Positions 7,946 through 61,792 of a stretch of DNA of 64,000 nucleotides are shown piece after piece (the first letter of the stretch is position 1; each line of letters starts with the position of its first letter). Under the pieces are notes generated by a model, which was given only the letters and a program-made list of their open reading frames with translations, searched no databases and was not told the origin of the DNA. The DNA lies in the NCBI RefSeq assembly GCF_000016125.1, contig NC_009135.1:558001-622000 (forward strand), given 5' to 3'. The translations under genes were made by a program, and so were the position numbers. The stretch comes from Methanococcus maripaludis C5. GTDB taxonomy: Archaea > AGJL01 > Methanococci > Methanococcales > Methanococcaceae.

Positions 7946-8004
7946 AAGCGCAGAGGGAGGGATTTGAACCCCCGCTCCCCAGTGGAGAACCGGATTTCAA
8001 GTCC
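7946..8004 (-). repeat. attachment-site copy: 3' part of tRNA-Ser(UGA), leftmost
   Basis: This segment matches the 3' portion of the intact tRNA-Ser gene at 61706-61792 from just outside the discriminator base through the T arm, long variable arm and into the anticodon stem, ending at GTCC (8001-8004). Beyond it, the D arm and 5' acceptor strand are missing, so it cannot be a functional tRNA. A 3'-tRNA fragment of this kind is the usual trace left by integrase-mediated insertion (attL). A second copy sits at 44493-44545. Confidence 0.85.
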
Positions 8005-11278: not shown

Positions 11279-11505
11279 AATTTTAACCTCCAAATTTACG
11301 AATACTGCTGGTTAATGCTTAGTATAAACAACTATATAAATCATACATATTTAATATAAAGTATTATTTAATACTTATAAAAATATATTTAAGTAATATG
11401 AACATACTCATTATACAGTTGGTTTAGGTTATCAAACGATTCATCTTACCAAAAACAGCAGCATTTGCCATATTCCAGTGATTTCATAAAAAATACTTAT
11501 CTTTT

Positions 11506-12372
11506 TTATTTCAAAACTGCATGGATGTATGAGACATTGTTTTTCTCCCATGCTTCTACACTATAACCTGCTTCCAAAAACAGTGCTTTCCAGTCTTCTG
11601 GACCCCTTTGCACACCATGAAAATGATCAATTGGCTCCACTGCAAATACTTCACCGGATGGTTTTAAAACCCGTTTAATATCTTGCAATGCTTTTGCTAC
11701 GTCATCAAGATGATGCAACATAAAAAAACAGGTAACTGTATCGAAGTATTCATCTTCAAAAGGTAATTCATAGGCGCTGGCTACAGCAAAATGTGTATTG
11801 GTTACGCCTTCAATTTTTGCATTTAATTTGCACTGTTCTATTGAACCATCAATGATGTCTACCCCATATATTATAGATTCTGGCTTTGCTTTAGCCATAT
11901 TTATTGCAAGAGATCCAATACCACAGCCTACGTCAAGTATATTCTTTCCGTTCAGTGATGGAAGAAGACTGTTGAATGCTTCCATTTTCCGGGGTTCCAT
12001 AGAAGTTTGTGGAAACTTTGCTTCTTTAATTTGATCAAAAGAAGTATATGGTAAAATACTATAGATGCGGGCACCATTTTCAGCCATTAACCCCCTTACA
12101 TAATGCATATCTCCTTCTTTTTGAATGTAGCTTACAACTGAAACTCCAAGACTATTACAAAACCTTTTATTTAGTTCTTCTATGTTTTTATGAAACTTTG
12201 TTTTCAGAGGGTCATGTATTACCATATAATGTGAGTATTTATCGGTAAAAATTTCGTCTTCTGCACCCGTAATTTCAATACCGCTTATTGCCTGTCTCCA
12301 TAAATGCGGCATTTTTAGGTTATCTTCTGTGGTATGGTTATGAACTTTTCCGATATTTTCCATTTGATTCAC
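11506..12372 (-). CDS. class I SAM-dependent methyltransferase
   Basis: A 288-aa protein. Residues about 145-155 show motif I (NILDVGCGIGSLAINMA) with the acidic motif II (IYGVDIIDGSIEQC) 25 residues later, then AYELPFEDEYFDTVTCFFMLHHLDD (motif III/IV), the usual Methyltransf_11 signature. The N-terminal ~130 residues (KVHNHTTEDNLKMPHLWRQAI...) are an extra domain that should carry substrate specificity, which I cannot name. It is likely to methylate a small molecule. It sits alone, with about 200 bp to cooC downstream. Confidence 0.75.
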   Translation of the reverse strand: MNQMENIGKVHNHTTEDNLKMPHLWRQAISGIEITGAEDEIFTDKYSHYMVIHDPLKTKFHKNIEELNKRFCNSLGVSVVSYIQKEGDMHYVRGLMAENGARIYSILPYTSFDQIKEAKFPQTSMEPRKMEAFNSLLPSLNGKNILDVGCGIGSLAINMAKAKPESIIYGVDIIDGSIEQCKLNAKIEGVTNTHFAVASAYELPFEDEYFDTVTCFFMLHHLDDVAKALQDIKRVLKPSGEVFAVEPIDHFHGVQRGPEDWKALFLEAGYSVEAWEKNNVSYIHAVLK

Positions 12373-33290: not shown

Positions 33291-34727
33291 TTAATTATTT
33301 TTTAAAGTATATCTCGTTGATCGAGCTTTCCCTTTCATTTCGAGGATATTTTCTTCGACCATTTCTTTTAAAATTTCTCTAGTTCTGCTTCTTTTTAAAT
33401 CGATTAAGTTTTCTATTTCTGTTGATGTAGCAGAACCATTTTCGGAGATATATAATATTATTTTTTTATGATTTTCATCCATATCGTCCACTATCGTCCG
33501 GTCAAGTTTAGTATCGTCCACTATCGTCCGGTCAAGTTTAGTATCGTCCACTATCGTCCGGTCACCAACAAGCGGTCGATAGAATCTAACTTTTAAAAAT
33601 GAGGTTTCAATAATTTCCGGCTTTTTAAGCCCGTATTTTTCACATTCATTAAATATTTTTCTAAATCCTGACCCCCACTGCTCAATAAATTTTGTTTCTT
33701 TAAATATTCTTGCAATTATGGGATTTCTCACTTCCGAACATCCTGTTCCAAGGTTATCAATATTTATTGTATTTGGAAGGGAACCTGGAGAAGTTATCTC
33801 TAAAAGGCTGTCAGAAATTGAAACTTTAATGTCTGATCCTAAAATTGAATAATCTCTGTGAACAACAGCATTTATCAACGCTTCCCTTAACGCAATAAAT
33901 GGGATTTCATAAGAGTCTTTTCTTTGCAGCCCTTCAATTTTTCCAGAGAGATTAAGATGTGATTTTAAAAACTTTTCGGCCATTATAATCTGTTCGAATA
34001 TAGTTCCTTCAATTTCTTTTTGGTCAATAAATTCAACAGCATCGTTTCCTTTGAATCTTGCACATCGTATTTTATAATTTTTTAATCCAAGAAGTGCAAT
34101 AAGGGCGTTTGTTGGATATTTTTTACCATTTTTACTTTTAATTAATTTTAAATTTTCTAAAACGTTTTCGGTAAATTTTTTCCCAGTTAATTTTTCAAGC
34201 TGTGTTAGAATGGCGTTTAAATCAAGCTCTTCAATTTTAAATTCCATATTGATGTCTTCATCATAAGCAATGTTTTCGCCTTCAAGCATTAAACGCCTAA
34301 CGGCATTACTATCACCCTTTTTATTTACATTATCTATTCTAAGATATGTCCCATTGTTAATCCCTTCTTTTTTTAAAAAATACGGCTTTTTACTTCCCGG
34401 ATAAATTCTTATAATCAAAATAATTTTTCCATCAATATTTTGAGTGAATATTTCTGGGCTTATCTGTGGTTCGCATGAATCCGCAATTGTATTTACAATT
34501 AATTCCCTTAATTTAGGGATTTCATCCGGATCTAGACCAATTATCTCATTTAAGCCATCTTTAACTCCCATGATAATTTTTCCGCCTGCAGTATTTGAGA
34601 AAGCTACAGCTGTTTTTGCAATCTGGTTATTTTGCGGCATTTGTTCCTTAAATTCAAGGGTTTTTCCTTCGCCTTTTTCAATATCGTTTAAAATTTGCAT
34701 ATTTCTCAACAAAAAACTATTTTTCAT
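33291..34727 (-). CDS. AlbA_2 (Schlafen-like) domain protein with C-terminal winged helix
   Basis: A 478-aa protein. The N-terminus has EGKTLEFKEQMPQNNQIAKTAVAFSNTAGGKIIMGVKDG (about residues 18-58), the AlbA_2/Slfn-AAA_4 signature. A GHKL-like ATP-binding part follows, with ALREALINAVVHRDYSILGS (about 280-300) and SPGSLPNTINIDNLGTGCSEVRNPIIARIF, as in COG2865 proteins. The end is a winged helix (KIILYISENGSATSTEIENL to YTLKNN). Such proteins are usually called transcriptional regulators or RecG-like, and recur in defence islands. Between the ATPase-like part and the HTH lies a tandem DRTIVDDTKL repeat. The start overlaps the end of the winged-helix gene upstream by 11 nt, so the two form an operon. 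Confidence 0.75.
   Translation of the reverse strand: MKNSFLLRNMQILNDIEKGEGKTLEFKEQMPQNNQIAKTAVAFSNTAGGKIIMGVKDGLNEIIGLDPDEIPKLRELIVNTIADSCEPQISPEIFTQNIDGKIILIIRIYPGSKKPYFLKKEGINNGTYLRIDNVNKKGDSNAVRRLMLEGENIAYDEDINMEFKIEELDLNAILTQLEKLTGKKFTENVLENLKLIKSKNGKKYPTNALIALLGLKNYKIRCARFKGNDAVEFIDQKEIEGTIFEQIIMAEKFLKSHLNLSGKIEGLQRKDSYEIPFIALREALINAVVHRDYSILGSDIKVSISDSLLEITSPGSLPNTINIDNLGTGCSEVRNPIIARIFKETKFIEQWGSGFRKIFNECEKYGLKKPEIIETSFLKVRFYRPLVGDRTIVDDTKLDRTIVDDTKLDRTIVDDMDENHKKIILYISENGSATSTEIENLIDLKRSRTREILKEMVEENILEMKGKARSTRYTLKNN
33482..33563. repeat. 30-bp tandem repeat inside the AlbA_2 gene
   Basis: A 30-bp unit containing CCACTATCGTCCGGTCAAGT is present 2.7 times (period starts 33482, 33512, 33542). 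In protein it gives DRTIVDDTKL twice and DRTIVDD once in the linker before the winged helix. The copies are nearly identical, so copy number may vary between strains by slippage without a frameshift. Confidence 0.9.
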
Positions 34728-40606: not shown

Positions 40607-40849
40607 TTGAATACCTTACGATTAACGCTTATAACTGACATGGACTGCAGAACTGCCCGGTACATGCTGCATAAATTGGAAAATATTGATAAAATTAGGC
40701 CAGAAATTTTAAAAAGGGCTGTAGAACTTGATAAATCATTTAGAAGAACAATTACACTTTCAGACGTAGAAGAAAAAATTTATGAAAAATACGGAAAAGC
40801 AACAAATTTGATGGTAAATTACGCAATTATCGCAGAGGGGATGGAATGA
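40607..40849 (+). CDS. 80-aa protein translationally coupled to an integrase
   Basis: An 80-aa, mostly helical, charged protein (LRLTLITDMDCRTARYMLHK, LENIDKIRPEILKRAVELDK, SLSDVEEKIYEKYGKATNLM then VNYAIIAEGME). TTG start with GGTGAT upstream. Its stop overlaps the integrase start by 4 nt (ATGA), so it is coupled to it; it may be an excisionase-like partner, but I recognise no family. A decayed copy of its last 20 residues lies just before the next integrase (43024-43102). Confidence 0.55.
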   Translation: MNTLRLTLITDMDCRTARYMLHKLENIDKIRPEILKRAVELDKSFRRTITLSDVEEKIYEKYGKATNLMVNYAIIAEGME

Positions 40850-41889
40850 GTAAAAAAGTTTTAAAAAATACATTTAAAATAGAATTTTTGGGTAATGGCT
40901 CCAACGATAAAATATATGCAGAAAAAATACCAATGAACCCCATAAACAAATGGAATGACATATACGGGTCAGAAAGATTAGGTAGCGGCATAAATCACAG
41001 TACTATACAAAATGAAAGTTCAATTTTGGCAGTTTTTCTAAGTTTTTGTGACGAAGAACTTCATAAAGAACCAAATACATTAACTTCAGCCGATTTAAAA
41101 AAATTTTTCTATTACTTAAGATATGTAAGAAAGCCAAACAATAGTAAAATTAAAAATAAGCTACAAAACGAAAGAATTTCAGAAAAAGCATTTAAAATCT
41201 ATTATACGTTGGTAAAAAAGTTTTATGCGACATTAAATCTTGAAAACTTTAAACAATTTGAAAAAGAATGTCAAACCCCCATTTTCAGAAAAACAAGACC
41301 AAATCCCCATGATGCAATTACCAGCGAAGAGTTCAATAAAATAATCAACGAGATTGAAAATAGCGACAGTAGTACCAAAATAAGAAATATACTTGCATTT
41401 AGGCTGCTTTGGGATACGGGAGCAAGAATTTCGGAAATTATTAAATTAAGATACAAAGATTGTGATTTTGAAAAAGGAAGATTTAATATTTCAAACACAA
41501 ATCGAGAAATTAGAACGGTGGTCTGTTCAAATGAAACTCTGAAACTATTTAATCAACATTTAAGCAAAATAAATGATTTTAGCAATCCTGATGATCCAAT
41601 ATTTCAAGTTTCAGGAGGTGAAAAAAGTCGGCAGATCAGTTCAAATCATTTAATCAAAGCAATGACCAAAACAGTGCAAAAATTAAAAGAAAAAGGAATT
41701 ATCGAAAATAATCGAGATTTAGTATTGTATTCGTTAAGACCTGGTCGAGCAGTTGAAGTCTTTGATGGGGGCCTTTCGATCGCACATATTCAACAATTGC
41801 TTGGACATCACGACATTCGAACGACAATGAAGTATAACCCTGTGATTGAGAGATGTCCAGATTTGGATAAACTTCAAAATAACTTATAA
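40846..41889 (+). CDS. tyrosine recombinase (XerC/D-like), motif II His replaced
   Basis: A 347-aa integrase: N-terminal SAM-like domain (about 45-130), catalytic domain from 155. Arg I is in WDTGARISEIIKLRY, the HxxR box reads YSLRPGRAVEVF (the His is Tyr, the Arg kept), then LLGHHDIRTTMKYNP with the third His and the nucleophilic Tyr. The two other integrases of the window have the normal HSLRHGRA. The His-to-Tyr change may reduce or abolish activity, although some recombinases tolerate Lys or Tyr there. Extended N-terminus (KNTFKIEFLGNGSNDKIYAE) compared with the others. Part of the left island. Confidence 0.85.
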   Translation: MSKKVLKNTFKIEFLGNGSNDKIYAEKIPMNPINKWNDIYGSERLGSGINHSTIQNESSILAVFLSFCDEELHKEPNTLTSADLKKFFYYLRYVRKPNNSKIKNKLQNERISEKAFKIYYTLVKKFYATLNLENFKQFEKECQTPIFRKTRPNPHDAITSEEFNKIINEIENSDSSTKIRNILAFRLLWDTGARISEIIKLRYKDCDFEKGRFNISNTNREIRTVVCSNETLKLFNQHLSKINDFSNPDDPIFQVSGGEKSRQISSNHLIKAMTKTVQKLKEKGIIENNRDLVLYSLRPGRAVEVFDGGLSIAHIQQLLGHHDIRTTMKYNPVIERCPDLDKLQNNL

Positions 41890-43023: not shown

Positions 43024-43102
43024 GATGACTAAACAGTTTACGACAATTACAAAAAAACTAAATTTATGATAAATTACAAAAATATTTCAGAGGGATGGGA
43101 TG
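43024..43102 (+). pseudogene. decayed 3' end of an integrase-coupled small gene
   Basis: The frame VYDNYKKTKFMINYKNISEG immediately before the integrase at 43100 aligns with the end of the 80-aa gene at 40607-40849 (IYEKYGKATNLMVNYAIIAEG). No start or upstream part is left; the region 42942-43020 is unreadable. It shows that the small gene plus integrase unit was once present twice. Confidence 0.6.
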
Positions 43103-44101
43103 AGCAGAAGGAAATTTGATCTCAAAGGACAATTATCTGACCAAAAAACTAAAATTGAATCACCAAAACGATTAGAAGAACATAATCCATATCTTATTAA
43201 ATTTATCGAAGAAAGAGAATTTGATAAAATTAAAGAAAGTACTATTAAAGAAGATGTATTACGACTTAGAATCTTTTTGTCGTTTTGTGATGATATTGGA
43301 AAAATTCCCGAAACTATGGATTATCACGAATTTAAACGTTTTTTCGTGTATTTAGAAAAAAAAAGAGGATGCACTCATCAAACACTAGTTCGATACTATA
43401 ATTTATTAAAAGTATTTTATAGGCTATTTAAATTCACAGCATTTAATGAATTTAATAATGAATGCATCGAGAGAAAGACTTTTTCAAAAAAATCAAAAAC
43501 AAGAAGTTATGATGATGTAAATAACGAAATTATGGATAAGGTGCTTGATGAAATACTTGATGGAAACAGCGCTACAAAAAATCGAGATGGACTTATGATG
43601 CTGGTTTTGTGGGAAACAGGCTGTAGGCGGTCAGAAGTTATACGCATAAAATACAATGATTTTGATTTTAAAACTGGGCAGATAAGATTAACAGATACTA
43701 AAAATGGGGAAGATAGATATGTTGTAGTTTCAAAAAAGACCACTAACTTGATAAGAGAGTACAGTTCAGAAAATATTTTGAAAGGGCCTGAAAATTTTAT
43801 TTTTCAAAGTGAAAAAGGTAAACTTGGAAAACAGGTAAAACCTGGCCATCTTTCAGAAGTTTTCAGAAGAGCAATTGATAATTTAATTAGTAAAGGGGAA
43901 ATCGAGGCTGGAAAGAGGTATGTTCTCCATTCTTTAAGGCATGGTAGGGCAGTTGCATTATTGGATGAGGGTACTTCCGTTGAAATTGTAAAGGAAATTT
44001 TAGGCCATAGTGACGTAAAGACTACGATGATTTATGCACATGCAAAAGAGAGAACAAAAAAGATGTTACCAGACATTCGAAAAAAATTAGATCAAAGATA
44101 A
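43100..44101 (+). CDS. tyrosine recombinase, intact catalytic set
   Basis: A 333-aa integrase of the XerC/D-like archaeal type. Catalytic residues: Arg in WETGCRRSEVIRIKY (about residue 178), HSLRHGRA (HxxR, about 278-281), LGHSDVKTTMIYAHA (third His and the nucleophilic Tyr, about 304-314). N-terminal core-binding domain present. It lies about 390 bp left of the tRNA-derived att copy at 44493-44545, and four TCCGGT boxes fall between. It likely mediates integration/excision of the island to the left. A remnant of a small coupled gene precedes it. Confidence 0.9.
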   Translation: MSRRKFDLKGQLSDQKTKIESPKRLEEHNPYLIKFIEEREFDKIKESTIKEDVLRLRIFLSFCDDIGKIPETMDYHEFKRFFVYLEKKRGCTHQTLVRYYNLLKVFYRLFKFTAFNEFNNECIERKTFSKKSKTRSYDDVNNEIMDKVLDEILDGNSATKNRDGLMMLVLWETGCRRSEVIRIKYNDFDFKTGQIRLTDTKNGEDRYVVVSKKTTNLIREYSSENILKGPENFIFQSEKGKLGKQVKPGHLSEVFRRAIDNLISKGEIEAGKRYVLHSLRHGRAVALLDEGTSVEIVKEILGHSDVKTTMIYAHAKERTKKMLPDIRKKLDQR

Positions 44102-44492: not shown

Positions 44493-44545
44493 CGCAGAGG
44501 GAGGGATTTGAACCCCCGCTCCCCAGTGGAGAACCGGATTTCAAG
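44493..44545 (-). repeat. attachment-site copy: 3' part of tRNA-Ser(UGA), central
   Basis: 53 bp identical to the tRNA-Ser 3' end from the base next to the acceptor through the T arm and variable arm to TTTCAAG in the anticodon loop (44539-44545). It breaks off 4 nt earlier than the left copy at 7946-8004, suggesting the crossover lies at the anticodon loop. It is the junction between the left island and the 17-kb element. Confidence 0.88.
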
Positions 44546-44706: not shown

Positions 44707-44727
44707 GGTCCGATTTAGTGGATGCCA
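44707..44727. repeat. 21-bp direct repeat, left copy (second at 61650-61670)
   Basis: GGTCCGATTTAGTGGATGCC plus A is present here and at 61650-61670, i.e. just inside both ends of the 17-kb element, in the same orientation. It could be an arm-type binding site for the integrase at 44780-45745. No copy was seen near 8000. Confidence 0.75.
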
Positions 44728-44779: not shown

Positions 44780-45745
44780 TTATAATATCTTTGAAATCTT
44801 ATCGAGCATTTTATTTTTACGTTCTGTAGAATGCGAGTAAATCATTGTAGTTTCTATTGATGTATGTCCAAGATATTCCTTTACAACATCTAGCGGAACG
44901 CCTTTATCGAGTAAATTTACTGCTCGACCATGTCTAAGCGAGTGTAAGACAAGCCACTTGTTTTCAGGGACACTACCTTCGCGCTTTAACTCGTTTACAA
45001 TACCCACAAATTTTTCACCTAATTGGCGTTTATTGATTATCCCGTCATAAGCGGATTTAAACAAGTAATCATCGGGCCCTTGGTCACCTTGATGTTGTAA
45101 ATAATAGTTTAGTAGTTTTAACGTTTCTTTTGAACAAACCACAGTTCTTTCACGTTTTGTTTTTGTGTTGGTGAGTTTGAACACACCTTTTTTAAGATCA
45201 CACGCAGAATATGTTAATTCAGCAACTTCAGATACTCTACAACCTGTATCCCACAATAATCGAAGAAATGTGGCATCACGTATTTTTGTCGATCCTTTCA
45301 TTCCAATTAACTTTTCGAGGATCATGTTTAGCGTTTCTTCGTCAATAGCATCGTAATGTCTAATTTCATGTTTGGTAAATCGCTTTCGCTCTTTACTTTC
45401 CACTAAAAAGTCATTGAAGTTTTTGTATTTCATGATCCTGTAAAACACAGTGAGCAACTTGAAGTACTTGTTTATGGTTGTATCTTTGCACTTCCGATCA
45501 TGCCTCAAGTGGTTAAAAAACGCAACGTAGTCTTTATTGTCTGTGGTATCAACGGTTTTGTTTAAAGTGTAATATATGTAGTTCAAATAGACTTTAAGCC
45601 GTTGACTGTCGTTTTTAATTGTTCGTTCCTTTAATCCATCAAAACGACGCTGTATTGTAAACTCTTTATCGATTTTATCAATTTCAAGTTTCTTGTAGTC
45701 GATTTTTTCTTCTGATTCGTCCGATTTACTTTTAATAAGTATCAT
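44780..45745 (-). CDS. tyrosine recombinase of the 17-kb element
   Basis: A 321-aa integrase closely related to the 43100-44101 enzyme: RLLWDTGCRVSEVAELTYSA (Arg), HSLRHGRAVNLLDKG (HxxR) and YLGHTSIETTMIYSHST (His and Tyr nucleophile), C-terminus RKNKMLDKISKIL. The N-terminal core-binding domain (KEFTIQRRFDGLKERTIKND) is complete. It is transcribed towards the central att copy, 234 bp away. Its gene is intact, not split by integration as in SSV-type elements, so the att site is outside the gene. The start is ATG 45745; upstream AAAGGTGGT at about 45768 is too far to be sure. Confidence 0.9.
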   Translation of the reverse strand: MILIKSKSDESEEKIDYKKLEIDKIDKEFTIQRRFDGLKERTIKNDSQRLKVYLNYIYYTLNKTVDTTDNKDYVAFFNHLRHDRKCKDTTINKYFKLLTVFYRIMKYKNFNDFLVESKERKRFTKHEIRHYDAIDEETLNMILEKLIGMKGSTKIRDATFLRLLWDTGCRVSEVAELTYSACDLKKGVFKLTNTKTKRERTVVCSKETLKLLNYYLQHQGDQGPDDYLFKSAYDGIINKRQLGEKFVGIVNELKREGSVPENKWLVLHSLRHGRAVNLLDKGVPLDVVKEYLGHTSIETTMIYSHSTERKNKMLDKISKIL

Positions 45746-46103: not shown

Positions 46104-46631
46104 AATCAGTATGACCGAAATGTAAAATCAGTATGACTAAATTATTTCATCCTACCAAATTGTGAATTTCATCCTACCAATATAATTGGTATGACCAAAA
46201 TACAAAATCGGTATGACTGAATAAATTCGGTATTACCAAAATACAAAATCGGTATGACTGAATAAATTCGGTATTACCAAAATACAAAATCGGTATGACT
46301 GAATAAATTCGGTATTACCAAAATACAAAATCGGTATGACTGAATAAATTCGGTATTACCAAAATACAAAATCGGTATGACTGAATAAATTCGGTATTAC
46401 CAAAATACAAAATCGGTATGACTGAATAAATTCGGTATTACCAAAATACAAAATCGGTATGACTGAATAAATTCGGTATTACCAAAATACAAAATCGGTA
46501 TGACTGAATAAATTCAGTAACACTGAATCACGAATTCGGTATGACTAAATCGTGAAAACATGAACTTGGTCTAATTCGGTATGACCAAAATACAAAATCG
46601 GTATGACTAAATTATTTCATCCTACCAAATT
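46104..46631. repeat. 41-bp tandem (iteron-like) array
   Basis: Seven exact 41-bp units start at 46209, 46250, 46291, 46332, 46373, 46414 and 46455, each with CGGTATGACTGAATAAATTC followed by GGTATTACCAAAATACAAAA and T. Each unit has two related boxes, GGTATGACT and GGTATTACC (the latter a GGTA/TACC dyad). The array is flanked on both sides by a 33-bp variant unit (46129-46161 and 46599-46631) containing GTATGACTAAATTATTTCAT and then CCTACCAAATT. There are no unique spacers and no cas genes. It is best read as an origin/partition iteron cluster or a repressor-binding array of the element. Confidence 0.9.
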
Positions 46632-46881: not shown

Positions 46882-47079
46882 ATGGTTCAAGCGAAAGATG
46901 TTATTGATGCATTGCTTAAAATAATGCCTGAGTTGACACAAGATGATGCTGTAAAATTATATGAAAATAGCAGCGTACCTAGTTTATTAACTGATAAACT
47001 TGTTCGGGAACATGGCGATGATGAAGAATTGGCTAAAACAGTTTTAGTCGAAAACAAACTTTATGAAAACTGCAGATAA
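46882..47079 (+). CDS. small acidic helical protein next to the iteron array
   Basis: A 65-68-aa protein (VQAKDVIDALLKIMPELTQD DAVKLYENSSVPSLLTDKLV REHGDDEELAKTVLVENKLY). All-helical, no family recognised. The start may be GTG 46873 or ATG 46882; no clear RBS. It is the first gene after the array and may be a maintenance or regulatory factor, by position only. 47080-47320 has no gene. Confidence 0.5.
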   Translation: MVQAKDVIDALLKIMPELTQDDAVKLYENSSVPSLLTDKLVREHGDDEELAKTVLVENKLYENCR

Positions 47080-47320
47080 AATTGATTAATTAATAATATC
47101 GACATTTTTTAATTTTTAAGCGAAATAGCGATAGCTAACAATACAATTGTGTAATTTACATAATACTGTTATTATTCCGACCTTACATTTTAACGGCAGA
47201 TAACAGCAATAATAAATATTGTCGATAGGATAGTAATGTAAGTCATAAAATAATAACCATATATTTTCTGAAAATGCAACCAATAAATTGAATTTACGCA
47301 AAATGGGGAACGGGGTATAT

Positions 47321-48385
47321 ATGTATAGCATTAAAGATAATCAAGCAACGAAAATTGAAAGGGTTACTTTTTCGGACTTAAAAATGACTGAAAACGATAT
47401 TGAAGAGATTTTAAGATGTAACATCAACATGTTGTGTGATGAAGAAGAATCACTACTTATTGTTGGAAGACAAGTTAAAAACGAGAAAAACGGTCGAAGT
47501 GATCTTACTGCAGTAGACAACAACGGAAACATTGTTTTAATTGAAATTAAGCGAGATAAAAAAGACATTGAAAACCGTAAAGAAGCGTTTGAGTTTCAGG
47601 CAATTCGATATGCTGCAAGCTATGCTAAAATTGAAAGTCCAGATGAGTTAGTTAAACTTGTTTACGCACCGTATATTGAAAAGTACAAGGGTGAATTTGA
47701 AATCGGTGAACTCACATCATATGAATTAGGTATTCGTAAACTTAACAAATTTTTGGAAGCAAACGATGTTATTAATTTTAACGAAAAGCAGAGAATAATT
47801 CTTGCAGCAGGCGAATACGACGAACAGACACTTTCTGCAGTAGCTTGGTTGAATAAAAATAGTGTTGATATGGGTTGTTATAAATTAACACCGTATCCAA
47901 TTAACGGTGAAACAATTATAAAAGCTGAAAAAGTACTGCCGCTTGCAAAATACACGGATTATTATGTTAATTTAATGGATAATACCACCCGTTATGTTTC
48001 GAAACGCGAAAAAGCAATTACGAGAAGAGTTTTACCCAAAATAGAAGACATGCTTTTATGGGGTGCTGTTAAAGCTGGTGACATAATAAAAGCAAAAGAT
48101 TATGGGGCTGAAGCGGTCCTCTTAAAAAATGGAAATGTATTGGCCGCCCCTACCAAAATTTTAAAAATTGAACGTTTATCAGCAGATGATAAGAGCATAC
48201 CAATGCAAAACGGTGTCGCTACTGAAATGTCAATGCAAACGTGGCTTAAGGATGTTTACGGATGGTCAAGTATCCAGACATACAATTTCGCAGTCCATAA
48301 AGAAAGTGGTAAAACATTATCGCAGATCCGTGAAGAGTATATGGAAAAACTAGCGAAAGAAACAGACGATACCGTCGATCAATAA
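47321..48385 (+). CDS. PD-(D/E)XK nuclease-like protein, possibly with a RAMA-like C-terminus
   Basis: A 354-aa protein from the ATG at 47321, which follows ACGGGG (an upstream TTG at 47288 lacks an RBS). Residues about 50-90 carry a nuclease core: NGRSDLTAVDNNGNIVLIEIKRDKKD (D...E-x-K) as in NucS/DUF91-like and other restriction-type folds, followed by AFEFQAIRYAASYAKIE. The C-terminal 110 residues (WGAVKAGDIIKAKDYGAEAV LLKNGNVLAAPTK, MQTWLKDVYGWSSIQTYNFA) resemble a RAMA-type domain associated with restriction enzymes and adenine methylases; this part of the call is weaker. It may sense and cut modified or foreign DNA. It precedes a second EVE gene and a type I RM system. Confidence 0.65.
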   Translation: MYSIKDNQATKIERVTFSDLKMTENDIEEILRCNINMLCDEEESLLIVGRQVKNEKNGRSDLTAVDNNGNIVLIEIKRDKKDIENRKEAFEFQAIRYAASYAKIESPDELVKLVYAPYIEKYKGEFEIGELTSYELGIRKLNKFLEANDVINFNEKQRIILAAGEYDEQTLSAVAWLNKNSVDMGCYKLTPYPINGETIIKAEKVLPLAKYTDYYVNLMDNTTRYVSKREKAITRRVLPKIEDMLLWGAVKAGDIIKAKDYGAEAVLLKNGNVLAAPTKILKIERLSADDKSIPMQNGVATEMSMQTWLKDVYGWSSIQTYNFAVHKESGKTLSQIREEYMEKLAKETDDTVDQ

Positions 48386-57002: not shown

Positions 57003-57269
57003 GATTTACCTGCCGTAACAAATTGCTAATGCGTGTTTAATCTAAATTTGATTTCCAAATGTAAAACGATTAAAATATTATCGTCAATTTGCAATTCATA
57101 CGACAATTGTTACTACTACAGGATATATAACAATTACTGAATCTGTAAAGTATTCATGAGTAAATTTTAAAAGTCCCTTCGTAATCAAAGCAATAATTAT
57201 AATTTTTTTATGGCTCTAGCGCATTTTATCACCCCATTTATAATTCAAATAATTGTTTAAGTACAATAT

Positions 57270-57690
57270 CAACCCCGAAAGGGGGATGTCTATGTGGCTC
57301 TTGTCGAATGAATGTCTATGTTCTGATTTAATCCGTTAAACTCCAAAAAACCCTTTAGGGAATGTCTCGCTATTAATGTCGACCCTGAAAGGGGATGTCT
57401 TTGTCGACTGATTTTATCGAAAAAAGTATGCTAGTTAATTTATATGGTATATGCGCACTGGCAAATCTGAAGGATTTGCATAAGGACTATTAATTTAAAT
57501 ATACGCGGCAATAGTGCCGTAATTAATTAAATATCCAATTCGTAGCAGATGAAATTGTTTAACTGAAACATAGACAGTCATAACAACAATTTAACATAGA
57601 CATTAAGCCCTTTAGGCTTTAACGACAATTTAACATAGACACTAAGCCCTTTAGGGGCTTTGACAACAATGTAACATAGACATTTCCTGA
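57270..57690. repeat. inverted arrays of ATGTCTATGT / ACATAGACAT boxes with short G/C hairpins
   Basis: Left half: ATGTCTATGT-type boxes near 57287, 57312, 57362 and 57395 (two shortened), each by a small palindrome such as ACCCCGAAAGGGGG, CCCTTTAGGG or CCCTGAAAGGGG. Right half: AACATAGACA boxes near 57567, 57592, 57630 and 57674, beside AAGCCCTTTAGG, AAGCCCTTTAGGGGCTT and TTCCTGAAGGAA. The two halves are in opposite orientation around about 57480. Multiple protein-binding boxes plus small stems before a replicative helicase gene suggest an origin. Confidence 0.75.
57453..57481 (+). repeat. 29-nt hairpin motif, copy 2 of 3
   Basis: GCGCACTGGC followed by AAATCTGAAGGATTTGCAT; stem GCAAATC/GATTTGC, loop TGAAG. 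Same family as 45899-45927 (reverse) and 57755-57783. Confidence 0.8.
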
Positions 57691-57754
57691 AGGAACAGGG
57701 TGGTGCATCGTTAGCGCATTTAACATGCAATTAAAAAAATATTCTGATTACAAT

Positions 57755-57783
57755 GCGCACTGGCAAATCTGGAAGATTTGCAT
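57755..57783 (+). repeat. 29-nt hairpin motif, copy 3 of 3
   Basis: GCGCACTGGC followed by AAATCTGGAAGATTTGCAT; stem GCAAATCT/AGATTTGC, loop GGA. The stem is conserved while the loop differs among copies. A partial ATGCACTGGC occurs at about 57813. Confidence 0.8.
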
Positions 57784-58259
57784 AATATACTCTTTAAAAA
57801 AATGTTATTTTTATGCACTGGCCGATACAAAATTTACTGACAGTAGTTATTGTTGCAGTCACCCACAAGTATATATACTATAACGTAACATAGTATAAAC
57901 ATATATTGATATTCTAATATAATAATATAATTAATAATATATCCAGTACGAATGAAGTAACAGTATTATGTACTCTGTTTTTATTAACACGCACTTAGCG
58001 TAGATTTTTAAGTACTAGTTATTATTTTTACAATTTGTTACACCCCAGTTACAGAAATAAAGTAACGGGCGCATATGGTTTAAATCACTATTGACGCTCA
58101 ATACGTGCTTATTTTACTTTCGTTGATATTTTTTTAGTAGGTCTTCTCATTTTTTGAAATATCGCATAATCTTAAGTTGCATTTATATACTATCGAAATT
58201 ACTGGTATTTTGCGGTAAAAAGTATGAAATAAAACACGAAATCGATGAAGAGGCATAAA

Positions 58260-60287
58260 ATGGTCAACGAAAAACAAGCACTGACAGAAACCCTGAAAGA
58301 TCAGATAGTACAGTCATTACTAGACTATCGTGAAAGTCAAAACGATAGTTCTTCAAATCTTAAAGAAGTTTTCCGACACTTTGTTACAAACCATTTAATC
58401 ATTCCGATGACGTCTAAGGATATTACGGACATATTTGGGGGACTTGATGCTAAATCTAACAGTATCAAAGCATACATTACGAATTTTACAAATGATGGAC
58501 TCATTTATAAGGATGATTCAGGGTATTTACACAAATCACAAACCGATATGGCGGACATTGTAGTTTATTTACAAAATAACTACACTGAGCAGTTGAAAAG
58601 TGGTAAAAGTATAATTGTCGACTTTCAGCAAGATTTTAAATCGGACGAGTTTTTATTGGCGCTTTTAAAAAACAATCCGGAGCAGCTTTTCAAAATGTTT
58701 AACGAAGCACTGGTTAAATCGCAAAATTCACTGCAAAAACAGACATTTAATAATATTATTGGTATCGAAAACGTGCCTGATGAATACAAGTGTAATATTG
58801 AAGATATAAATTCAGCTTTGCTCTCCAAAATTGTTGAATTCGAGGGTATTGTATCAATAGCGTCTACAAGAAAAACAGTGCTCAAAAAAGCAGTTTATTC
58901 ATGCAATTGCGGCAATAAAGACGAAAAAGTATTTAACAACGTGATTACAAGCAGCCCTGATAAAATATGTAAATGCGGAAAGAAAATGGAACTTAATGGC
59001 TCAAAGTCGTTATACATTGATATTCAGGAATTCAAGTTGCAGCAACCTGTAGAAACAATGAATAATCCGAAAGAACCGCCAAAATACATGTCAGTGTTTT
59101 TCGAAAACTCGCCAGGCATTTACAGCGGCAAATTAAATATTGTCGGAATACCATTTAAGAAAAAGCAGAAAAACGGACCATTGTATGATATACACGTTTA
59201 TGCCAAATCCGTAGTGCCTGTAGAAGACATTATCGATAATAGGTTGGACGAAAGCAAAATAAAAGATATAAAACGGATTTCAGATTATTGTATCGATAAT
59301 AATATTGATTTACTCGATAAACTGTCCGAATTAGTTGTTCCGACCATTCAGGGTTACGAAAAAGTAAAAAAAGCAATATTGCTGCAACAAATGAAGGGCG
59401 CATACGGATTAACCCGTAATGATTTACACATACTACTTGTTGCAGATCCTGGAGTCGGTAAATCAGAAATACTACGTACAATTTCAAAATTACCTAAAAA
59501 TTTATACGGATCAATTACTGGAACATCTGGTGTTGGATTGACTGCATCTGTTGAGCAGGAAAAAACAACCGTTGGTGATAGCGGCTGGGTAACTAAACCT
59601 GGATTATTGGTCACCAAAAACGGAGGAACTGCGTCACTTGATGAGTTAACTGTAGATAAAGACTTATCGTCCCATTTATTGGAAGCGATGGAGTCTCAAG
59701 AAATACACATCGCAAAAGCAGGGATTAATATAAGCTTGCCTGCAAAAATCGCGATTCTTGCAGCATGTAATCCTAAAAACGGGCGTTGGGATAAGTCCAA
59801 AGGACTAATTGATCAGATCGAATTAACTGAACCTATTTTAGACCGGTTTGATTTAATATTTGATATGAACACGGGCCAAAACAGCGAATTAGATGCTGAA
59901 ATCGCTCGAAAAACAATTCGAAATTATAATAACGGATCTGAAGCTATTGACACTATCGTCGAAACTACCGTAACTATCGGGGAAGACGTAATTAACCGTG
60001 AATTTTTACTTGACTTTATAGAATATGCAAGAACGCTGCAAGTAAAGATTCCAGAAAATATCAATGAGATTATGGTTAATTATTATGTCGCCCATAAGAA
60101 GAAAGACAATAGCAGTTCCGTTAGATTGCTCGAAACACTCATTCGGCTTTCAACAGCATTTGCAAAAGCCAGGCTTGCCACTGAAATTAGTGATCAAGAT
60201 TTTAAAAACGCCTGTGAACTATTTGAATCATCCATAAAAGTTCGAGAAGTTAACGCACCTGTAAAAACCGTTGCTTCGGCCTCATAA
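58260..60287 (+). CDS. mcm: MCM replicative helicase of the integrated element
   Basis: A 675-aa MCM (or 680 from an upstream ATG at 58245; the second ATG has GAAGAGG about 6 nt before it). An N-terminal region of about 180 residues with a winged-helix feel is longer than usual. The zinc-binding part has four Cys (YSCNCGNKDEKVF and KICKCGKKM, about residues 214-245). The AAA+ core: Walker A LLVADPGVGKSEILRT (about 395-408), Walker B GGTASLDELTVDKDLSSHLL EAMESQEIHIAKAG, sensor 1 AILAACNPKNGRWD, arginine finger EPILDRFDLIFD, then a C-terminal winged helix. MCM unwinds DNA at forks; Methanococcales are known to carry extra mcm copies spread by mobile elements. Here the gene sits between the putative origin and the tRNA-proximal end. 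Confidence 0.92.
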   Translation: MVNEKQALTETLKDQIVQSLLDYRESQNDSSSNLKEVFRHFVTNHLIIPMTSKDITDIFGGLDAKSNSIKAYITNFTNDGLIYKDDSGYLHKSQTDMADIVVYLQNNYTEQLKSGKSIIVDFQQDFKSDEFLLALLKNNPEQLFKMFNEALVKSQNSLQKQTFNNIIGIENVPDEYKCNIEDINSALLSKIVEFEGIVSIASTRKTVLKKAVYSCNCGNKDEKVFNNVITSSPDKICKCGKKMELNGSKSLYIDIQEFKLQQPVETMNNPKEPPKYMSVFFENSPGIYSGKLNIVGIPFKKKQKNGPLYDIHVYAKSVVPVEDIIDNRLDESKIKDIKRISDYCIDNNIDLLDKLSELVVPTIQGYEKVKKAILLQQMKGAYGLTRNDLHILLVADPGVGKSEILRTISKLPKNLYGSITGTSGVGLTASVEQEKTTVGDSGWVTKPGLLVTKNGGTASLDELTVDKDLSSHLLEAMESQEIHIAKAGINISLPAKIAILAACNPKNGRWDKSKGLIDQIELTEPILDRFDLIFDMNTGQNSELDAEIARKTIRNYNNGSEAIDTIVETTVTIGEDVINREFLLDFIEYARTLQVKIPENINEIMVNYYVAHKKKDNSSSVRLLETLIRLSTAFAKARLATEISDQDFKNACELFESSIKVREVNAPVKTVASAS

Positions 60288-60584
60288 CGAAGTGTTATGT
60301 TCAAATGGCAATTTACCCCCTTCTTGAACATACCTTTCAATCAGGTAATTTGTTACACGGATCCAGTCAACTCTTTGGCCGAATTCGCCCAAAATGGAAG
60401 ATCGCAGTGAACCAAGTTCAGACATTTCAAATATTGTGCATTCGCTATTAATAAGCAGCATGAGTTCATAGTGGGAAGTGCACTGTGTAATTTTTTCCGA
60501 CCATTCTCCGGAAATGTAACCTTTATTATTTAATGTATCGATTACAAGTTCTGTTAATTTGTAGTTTACTATAATATCATCCAT
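60282..60584 (-). CDS. hypothetical 100-aa protein, convergent with mcm
   Basis: A 100-aa acidic helical protein (DDIIVNYKLTELVIDTLNNK GYISGEWSEKITQCTSHYEL MLLINSECTIFEMSELGSLR SSILGEFGQRVDWIRVTNYL). No family recognised; possible small helical adaptor or wHTH. Its 3' end overlaps the mcm stop by 6 nt on the opposite strand. RBS GGTGTTAAT-like before ATG 60584. Confidence 0.55.
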   Translation of the reverse strand: MDDIIVNYKLTELVIDTLNNKGYISGEWSEKITQCTSHYELMLLINSECTIFEMSELGSLRSSILGEFGQRVDWIRVTNYLIERYVQEGGKLPFEHNTSL

Positions 60585-61705
60585 ATTAACACCATTATTA
60601 CTTTTTTGCCCATAGGACGTTTTTTAATTGTTTTATTTATTATTGTATCGTTATTAACAGTGTGTTTAGCTATTAAGCGTATTTACGCAATCACTGTATT
60701 GATATATTACAAAATTTACCTTACAATAACAATTTACTGTTTGAAAGTACAGTTTGATAACCAAAAGTGATTCGAACGTTTTATACGATATTCATTATTA
60801 TTGTTTTAAACTGTAGCCTATCGAAATCATACTTATTGCATTCTTAAGTTTCGCAGTTTATACTTCAGCTGCTGCGAGCTTTTAATGTGGATACTGTTAA
60901 ATACATTCTTAGTTTGACCAAATGTTGTTTTCAAATTTCCGAAATCATGTGTCCAAAAATTACACACTGTCAATTACTTTTTTTATGTCATGGAAGTGTT
61001 CCGACTAAAGGTGAAGATATACGAATTACCTCTTCAAGTCCTGAATCGATAGGCTATAAACACTAAACATCATATTAAAGGTAATATTGGTAATTTCATG
61101 CAGTATGCTAACGCTATATATACTAAATGGCCACGAATACGCCATTCAATACCAAATAAATGTCCCGTACAAGTACTCTGAGGTACTCATATATATTGTA
61201 AAATAAATTCTAGCGCTTTTAATATGTCTATTGGCAATTTGGTGGATACAATGAAGATAAACGTAAATTATCAGCGTATTAGTGGCGTATTTACCTAGCG
61301 ATTATCAGCGTAATTAACAATAAAAGTGCCGCGGTTTTGAAGCATTTAATTGTGGTTATATGATAATATGGGTTGTTCGGAAAAATTTTTCAAATTTTCA
61401 AAAACTGCGAAAAAAGTAGTGAATGTTCCGTCAATTAAGTGGGGCATGAAGTAAATATTGTCGATATCAACACCTCAATATAGCAGATGGTGGTTGAGGT
61501 TGGCCAATGACGCCGGAGTTGAATTTCGATATTAGTCCTGTACAACATAACTGCGCATCAAGATGCACTGGGACGGTTCAGGATAGCTGTTAAAAAAAGG
61601 TCCTTCGACGTTTAAATTACGTTAATTGTTAATCTGCGTTAAAAAAGCTGGTCCGATTTAGTGGATGCCAACGTTCGTGGCGTTATTTAGCGTTTCAAAA
61701 TGAAG
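60585..61705. other. 1.1-kb gap between the last element gene and the tRNA
   Basis: No gene seen on either strand. Contains the right copy of the 21-bp repeat (61650-61670) and a GC-richer block at about 61475-61590 (see findings). The rest is AT-rich; no remnants of known genes could be read. Confidence 0.5.
61650..61670. repeat. 21-bp direct repeat, right copy
   Basis: Same as 44707-44727 and same orientation, 36 bp outside the tRNA-Ser 3' end. See the left copy for interpretation. Confidence 0.75.
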
Positions 61706-61792
61706 CGCAGAGGGAGGGATTTGAACCCCCGCTCCCCAGTGGAGAACCGGATTTCAAGTCCGGCGCCTTTGGCCAAGCTCAACCACCTCTGC
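61706..61792 (-). tRNA. tRNA-Ser(UGA), intact
   Basis: The minus strand folds into a full type II tRNA of 87 nt: acceptor GCAGAGG/CCTCTGC with discriminator G (C at 61706), D arm GAGCTTGGCCAAAGGC, anticodon stem CCGGA/TCCGG around loop CTTGAAA (anticodon TGA, reads UCA), a long variable arm (TCTCCACTGGGGAG region) and T loop TTCAAAT. No encoded CCA. It is the intact copy at the right border: its 3' part recurs at 44493-44545 and 7946-8004, so it serves as the integration target (attB/attR). Confidence 0.95.

Follow-up and report, generated by a model that had tools for sequence, protein, structure and literature searches.

A tandem 41-bp repeat array as a putative iteron-like locus in an integrated MCM-bearing element of Methanococcus

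A tandem array of 41-bp units was identified in a 17.2-kb element integrated in a tRNA-Ser gene, between positions 44493 and 61706 of the window (the whole 64,000-nucleotide stretch analysed). Judging from its architecture and from the recurrence of its short box in two related elements, the array is probably a docking site for one of the element's own replication or upkeep proteins. The genome comprises replicons of 1,780,761 and 8,285 bp, sizes that match Methanococcus maripaludis C5 and its plasmid pURB500, which we take them to be. We tentatively read the array as an iteron-like multi-site binding array for replication start or for copy-number/incompatibility control of the excised element, and put the chance of this reading slightly below even. 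An element-encoded protein would read the partial dyad RGT-NNN-ACY, and boxes placed about every two helical turns would let many copies of it load side by side. A single 41-bp unit would have been amplified recently in C5, with the sister elements retaining only about three boxes. Two features by which iterons are recognised are present, namely a short box directly repeated several times with near-helical spacing (22 boxes, 22/19 bp) and conservation of the box in related replicons (two sister elements). The earlier note had offered a partition site or a copy-control iteron set; the boxes, their spacing and their enrichment in the sisters fit the latter, whereas for the former no ParA/ParB-like gene was found among the proteins scanned.

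Tandem Repeats Finder reports a period of 41 with 8.3 copies (score 652) at 46179-46519, bearing out the tandem 41-mer array first noticed. The letter-identical units start at 46220, 46261, 46302, 46343, 46384, 46425 and 46466, and the unit directly 3' of them, at 46507, carries 10 mismatches. These seven identical copies support the suggestion of recent amplification, in which one 41-bp unit would lately have multiplied in the C5 strain. The earlier note also described the same 33-bp variant unit on each side. A matching bracketing unit is real on both sides, but its size is 56 bp, and its 33-bp core agrees at 32 of 33 positions (46129-46161 versus 46599-46631); a third, partial copy lies at 46163-46175. 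In a wraparound alignment the bracketing units are degenerate 41-mers on the same lattice as the core, so the bracket is the array edge and not a separate boundary element. The whole array holds 22 boxes (14 RGTATGACY, seven GGTATTACC and one AGTAACACT), and box starts in its core alternate at 22 and 19 bp, about two helical turns. The dyad character ascribed to the boxes holds as the partial dyad, which becomes perfect in the variant at 46516.

Other classes of repeat were considered. The array is non-coding, with no ORF of 50 aa or more inside it, and a coding repeat was rejected. A CRISPR array was rejected because the entire 41-bp unit is identical and unique spacers are absent. A structured RNA was also set aside, since the strong folding of the self-complementary units (z -9) is expected from repeated dyads and no Rfam match was obtained. 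The 41-mer was not found elsewhere in the host genome, the array was absent by DNA homology from every other genome in a set of 61 and from plasmid records, and no exact 30-mer of it matched IMG/VR contigs.

Table 1. Features of the array, the integrated element and its relatives (window positions unless a contig is named).
Feature	Position	Strand	Remarks
attL, copy of tRNA-Ser 3' half	44493..44544	+	52-bp exact match to 61706-61757
Candidate integrase accessory (arm) site GGTCCGATTTAGTGGATGCCA	44707..44727	+	exact second copy 61650-61670
Tyrosine integrase	44780..45745	-	Pfam Phage_integrase 9e-35; 68-69% identical to G002/G003 integrases
33-bp hairpin repeat GCGCACTGGCAAATCTGAAGGATTTGCATAA	45893..45925	-	inverted relative to copies 57451-57483 and 57753-57785
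Left bracketing variant unit	46106..46161	+	two boxes and a TACCAAA half box
First near-consensus unit	46179..46219	+	4 mismatches; directly 5' of the seven identical units
Seven letter-identical 41-bp units	46220..46506	+	two boxes per unit, GGTATTACC and GGTATGACT
Degenerate units, including perfect dyad ATTCAGT-AAC-ACTGAAT	46507..46575	+	
Right bracketing variant unit	46576..46631	+	51/56 identical to 46106-46161
65-aa acidic helical protein	46882..47079	+	pI 4.5; TATA-like ATTATAAATAC ~40 bp upstream
Candidate defence nuclease, PADLOC PDC-S11	47321..48385	+	E 7.5e-36
Second repeat cluster, CATAGACA boxes	57268..57700	+	upstream of mcm
Element MCM helicase	58245..60287	+	
100-aa acidic helical protein (ORF60282)	60282..60584	-	gene adjoins box region in both sisters
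tRNA-Ser(TGA), attachment gene / attR	61706..61792	-	
G002 sister element	C2:100.9-126.4 kb		
G003 sister element	C1:303.5-330.6 kb		

The 3' half of the attachment gene, tRNA-Ser(TGA), recurs as exact copies at 44493 and near 7949, and the left flank of attL resembles the tRNA flank of two other Methanococcus genomes, G002 and G003. The three 3' halves (7949, 44493 and 61706) delimit at least two tandem elements, at about 7.9-44.5 and 44.5-61.7 kb. Further integrase-family genes lie in the window at 40846-41889 and 43100-44101, and the neighbouring element contains a 30-bp perfect tandem repeat (2.8 copies, 33482-33564) overlapping an ORF at 33291-34727. The element with the array encodes the integrase (minus strand), the 65-aa ORF, the candidate defence nuclease, EVE, the type I restriction genes hsdR, S and M, a 171-aa ORF without assignment, mcm and the 100-aa ORF. 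The array was initially placed at the other end from mcm, which is correct for the linear integrated map, but in the excised circle it lies ~3.1 kb from the mcm end with att and int in between.

Related elements occupy this tRNA-Ser in G002 and G003 as well. All three elements have the integrase, EVE, MCM and the 60282-like 100-aa protein in common; identity to the C5 proteins is 68-69% for the integrase, 86-89% for EVE, 32-38% for the 100-aa protein, and 60% and 52% for MCM, the 52% copy being broken by stops. The candidate defence nuclease is 77% identical in G002, and no homologue of it was found in G003. Queries with the integrase and MCM against IMG/VR and GTDB contigs returned no close relative as a further sister. 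The earlier note listed absence from related elements among its refuting conditions, and on this point the outcome is mixed, the 41-mer array being absent from both the G002 and G003 elements and the box being present in them.

Several counts describe this conservation. Of the 9-mers that the three elements share in their non-coding DNA, GGTATGACT has the top combined count (10, 3 and 1 copies), and exact AAAAAGRGTATGACTCTTTTT occurs solely in the sister elements, twice in G002 and once in G003. RGTATGACY is present four times in each sister element, where its frequency in the remainder of the two genomes predicts about 0.19 and 0.34 copies. The combined Poisson p of 3.3e-7 is optimistic, as the box was already known when the test was run. 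Three of these four copies share a strand in each sister and sit next to the 100-aa gene, in DNA with few genes. Among 37 genomes, two GGTATGACY within 60 bp were found only in the array and the G002 element, and the reversed pattern, used as a control, gave one match, elsewhere; the close-pair pattern also matched 11 viral contigs. Both sister elements have gene-poor stretches, 4-5 kb long (L047 6268-10157, L048 4566-9508), and related blocks of about 330-550 bp are repeated within and between them. A 328-bp stretch without large ORFs (L047 about 11356-11682; L048) is 88% identical between the two, more alike than most of their genes, and has no Rfam match; it is a candidate non-coding RNA or regulatory block. 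Both sisters also have a degenerate inverted tRNA-Ser 3' half beside the integrase gene (L046:7212, L045:8753), absent at the corresponding place in the C5 element.

Comparison of gene orders suggests that the C5 element differs from its sisters by an inversion, and undoing it brings the C5 array to the same place and orientation as the sister boxes. The 33-bp hairpin repeat, all three copies of which are in the C5 element (21 genomes searched), could be an endpoint of this inversion. A second repeat cluster, which also carries short G+C hairpins, lies near the detrended minimum of the cumulative GC skew of the element (57276), and this minimum is not at the array. In G003 the box region is near the skew minimum, which is not clearly so in G002. 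GC skew does not place an origin at the array, and it gives no clear origin signal either before or after the proposed inversion is undone. One may speculate that both repeat regions belonged to one origin region split by the inversion.

The main rival to the iteron-like reading, and a strong one, is neutral amplification. Here slippage or unequal exchange would have multiplied the units of a small functional site, comparable to the sisters' three-box sites, and the length of the array would be without function. The seven identical units with their degenerate edges and the absence of the array from all relatives agree with such a minisatellite, as does the fact that in the degenerate flanking units the box columns are kept no better than the linkers (79% versus 78% conserved; Fisher p = 1). 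It leaves unexplained, however, that the box in the amplified unit is conserved from element to element and that two box types follow a regular 22/19 spacing. We consider this rival somewhat unlikely.

Alternatively, the array could be an operator at which a regulator bound to the boxes controls the small downstream ORF together with the candidate defence gene (46882-48385). The TATA-like box of this ORF follows the array at ~200 bp, the array is oriented like both genes, and in G002 the boxes share a strand with the 47321-like gene. Those boxes, however, are more than 3 kb from that gene, G003 keeps boxes though a homologue of neither gene was found there, the array overlaps no promoter, and the element yielded no known regulator fold. 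The operator is regarded as unlikely. A tie between the array and the nuclease was likewise rejected, since IMG/VR relatives of the nuclease have no such array or box cluster.

For the iteron-like reading, we infer that the boxes would be read by the element MCM, via an N-terminal extension, or by the 100-aa protein. The 65-aa protein, proposed earlier as the partner of the array, is an unlikely box reader: it is acidic, no counterpart was detected in G003, and its helical model (AF2 pLDDT 87) has no PDB fold match; a weak homologue exists in G002. The model of the 100-aa protein is also helical (AF2 pLDDT 65) and has no PDB fold match. The element MCM ends about 16 residues after MCM_lid, and MCM_C was not found there; it lacks the C-terminal winged helix that the aligned host MCMs have. 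At its N-terminus it bears an unassigned extension of ~100 residues, conserved in G002 and G003, that may include a DNA-binding domain. A winged helix is not claimed for this extension, as the Pfam hints are weak (MCM_C 0.17 and 0.05, HTH_45 0.054) and an hhalign comparison with the C-termini of host MCMs, at 4.1%, was no better than its control at 2.6%. In a bolder version, which we hold to be improbable, origin boxes are read by the element MCM itself, which would have lost the usual C-terminal winged helix and acquired a new N-terminal DNA-binding domain. Methanococcales have no recognisable Orc1/Cdc6, and how replication starts there is a standing question (PMC3984812). If this version were true, MCM would be a helicase that both finds a repeat array and loads itself there with no help from Orc1/Cdc6, which the order lacks.

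Tandem dyad boxes also look like bacterial centromere arrays, but a centromere-like partition site has little probability, because no ParA/SegA-type ATPase or ParB-type protein was found among the element proteins scanned (Pfam detected no ParA/ParB-like gene in ten proteins around the array). Accessory (arm) sites for the integrase are very improbable: the integrase keeps 68-69% identity and, of the seven window proteins with computed charge, it alone is strongly basic, but the array is 1.6 kb from attL, most sister boxes lie 3 kb or more from att, and exact 21-bp repeats within 60-220 bp of both att sites fit better. This 21-bp repeat, GGTCCGATTTAGTGGATGCCA, has one exact copy just inside each element end and none in G002/G003, and would be the better candidate for an integrase accessory site.

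Compared with known systems, the array resembles bacterial plasmid iteron origins and copy-control loci in having direct box repeats spaced by about two helical turns, which lie outside coding sequence in a replicon that brings a replication gene of its own. It differs in the 41-bp unit with two box types, and the element, in which no iteron-binding Rep was identified, has MCM instead, with the array 3 kb from mcm. Tandem dyad boxes are shared with ParABS/SegAB centromere arrays, whereas no ATPase or adaptor gene was found in the element. pURB500 (8285 bp) is comparable to the element in its host, in having repeats of its own and in an integrase-family gene. The 41-mer is unrelated to the repeats of this plasmid, among them TGTTCGATAAAAAAATCGAACA and CACGATATCGTG, and iterons of the pURB500 type were rejected; no MCM match was detected in pURB500 at 1e-30. 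Plasmids of the pT26-2 family share with the element tRNA-Ser integration, a tyrosine integrase, intergenic repeats and MCM as the likely replication protein (PMC6972569), but the present element differs in gene content and carries restriction/defence genes. The survey of that family listed for strain C5 only a remnant without detectable limits, placed putative origins of related MCM plasmids in repeat-rich or GC-skew regions, mostly near the Rep gene, and reported no conserved origin consensus (PMC6972569), whereas one box is common to three elements here. Amplified 22-fold in one of these elements, the box offers defined bait DNA with which to look for an initiator or copy-control protein in a methanogen amenable to genetics, and it could yield a new vector origin. 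Repeat arrays of such form are already known; what is new is the array itself and a box common to three MCM-bearing Methanococcales elements.
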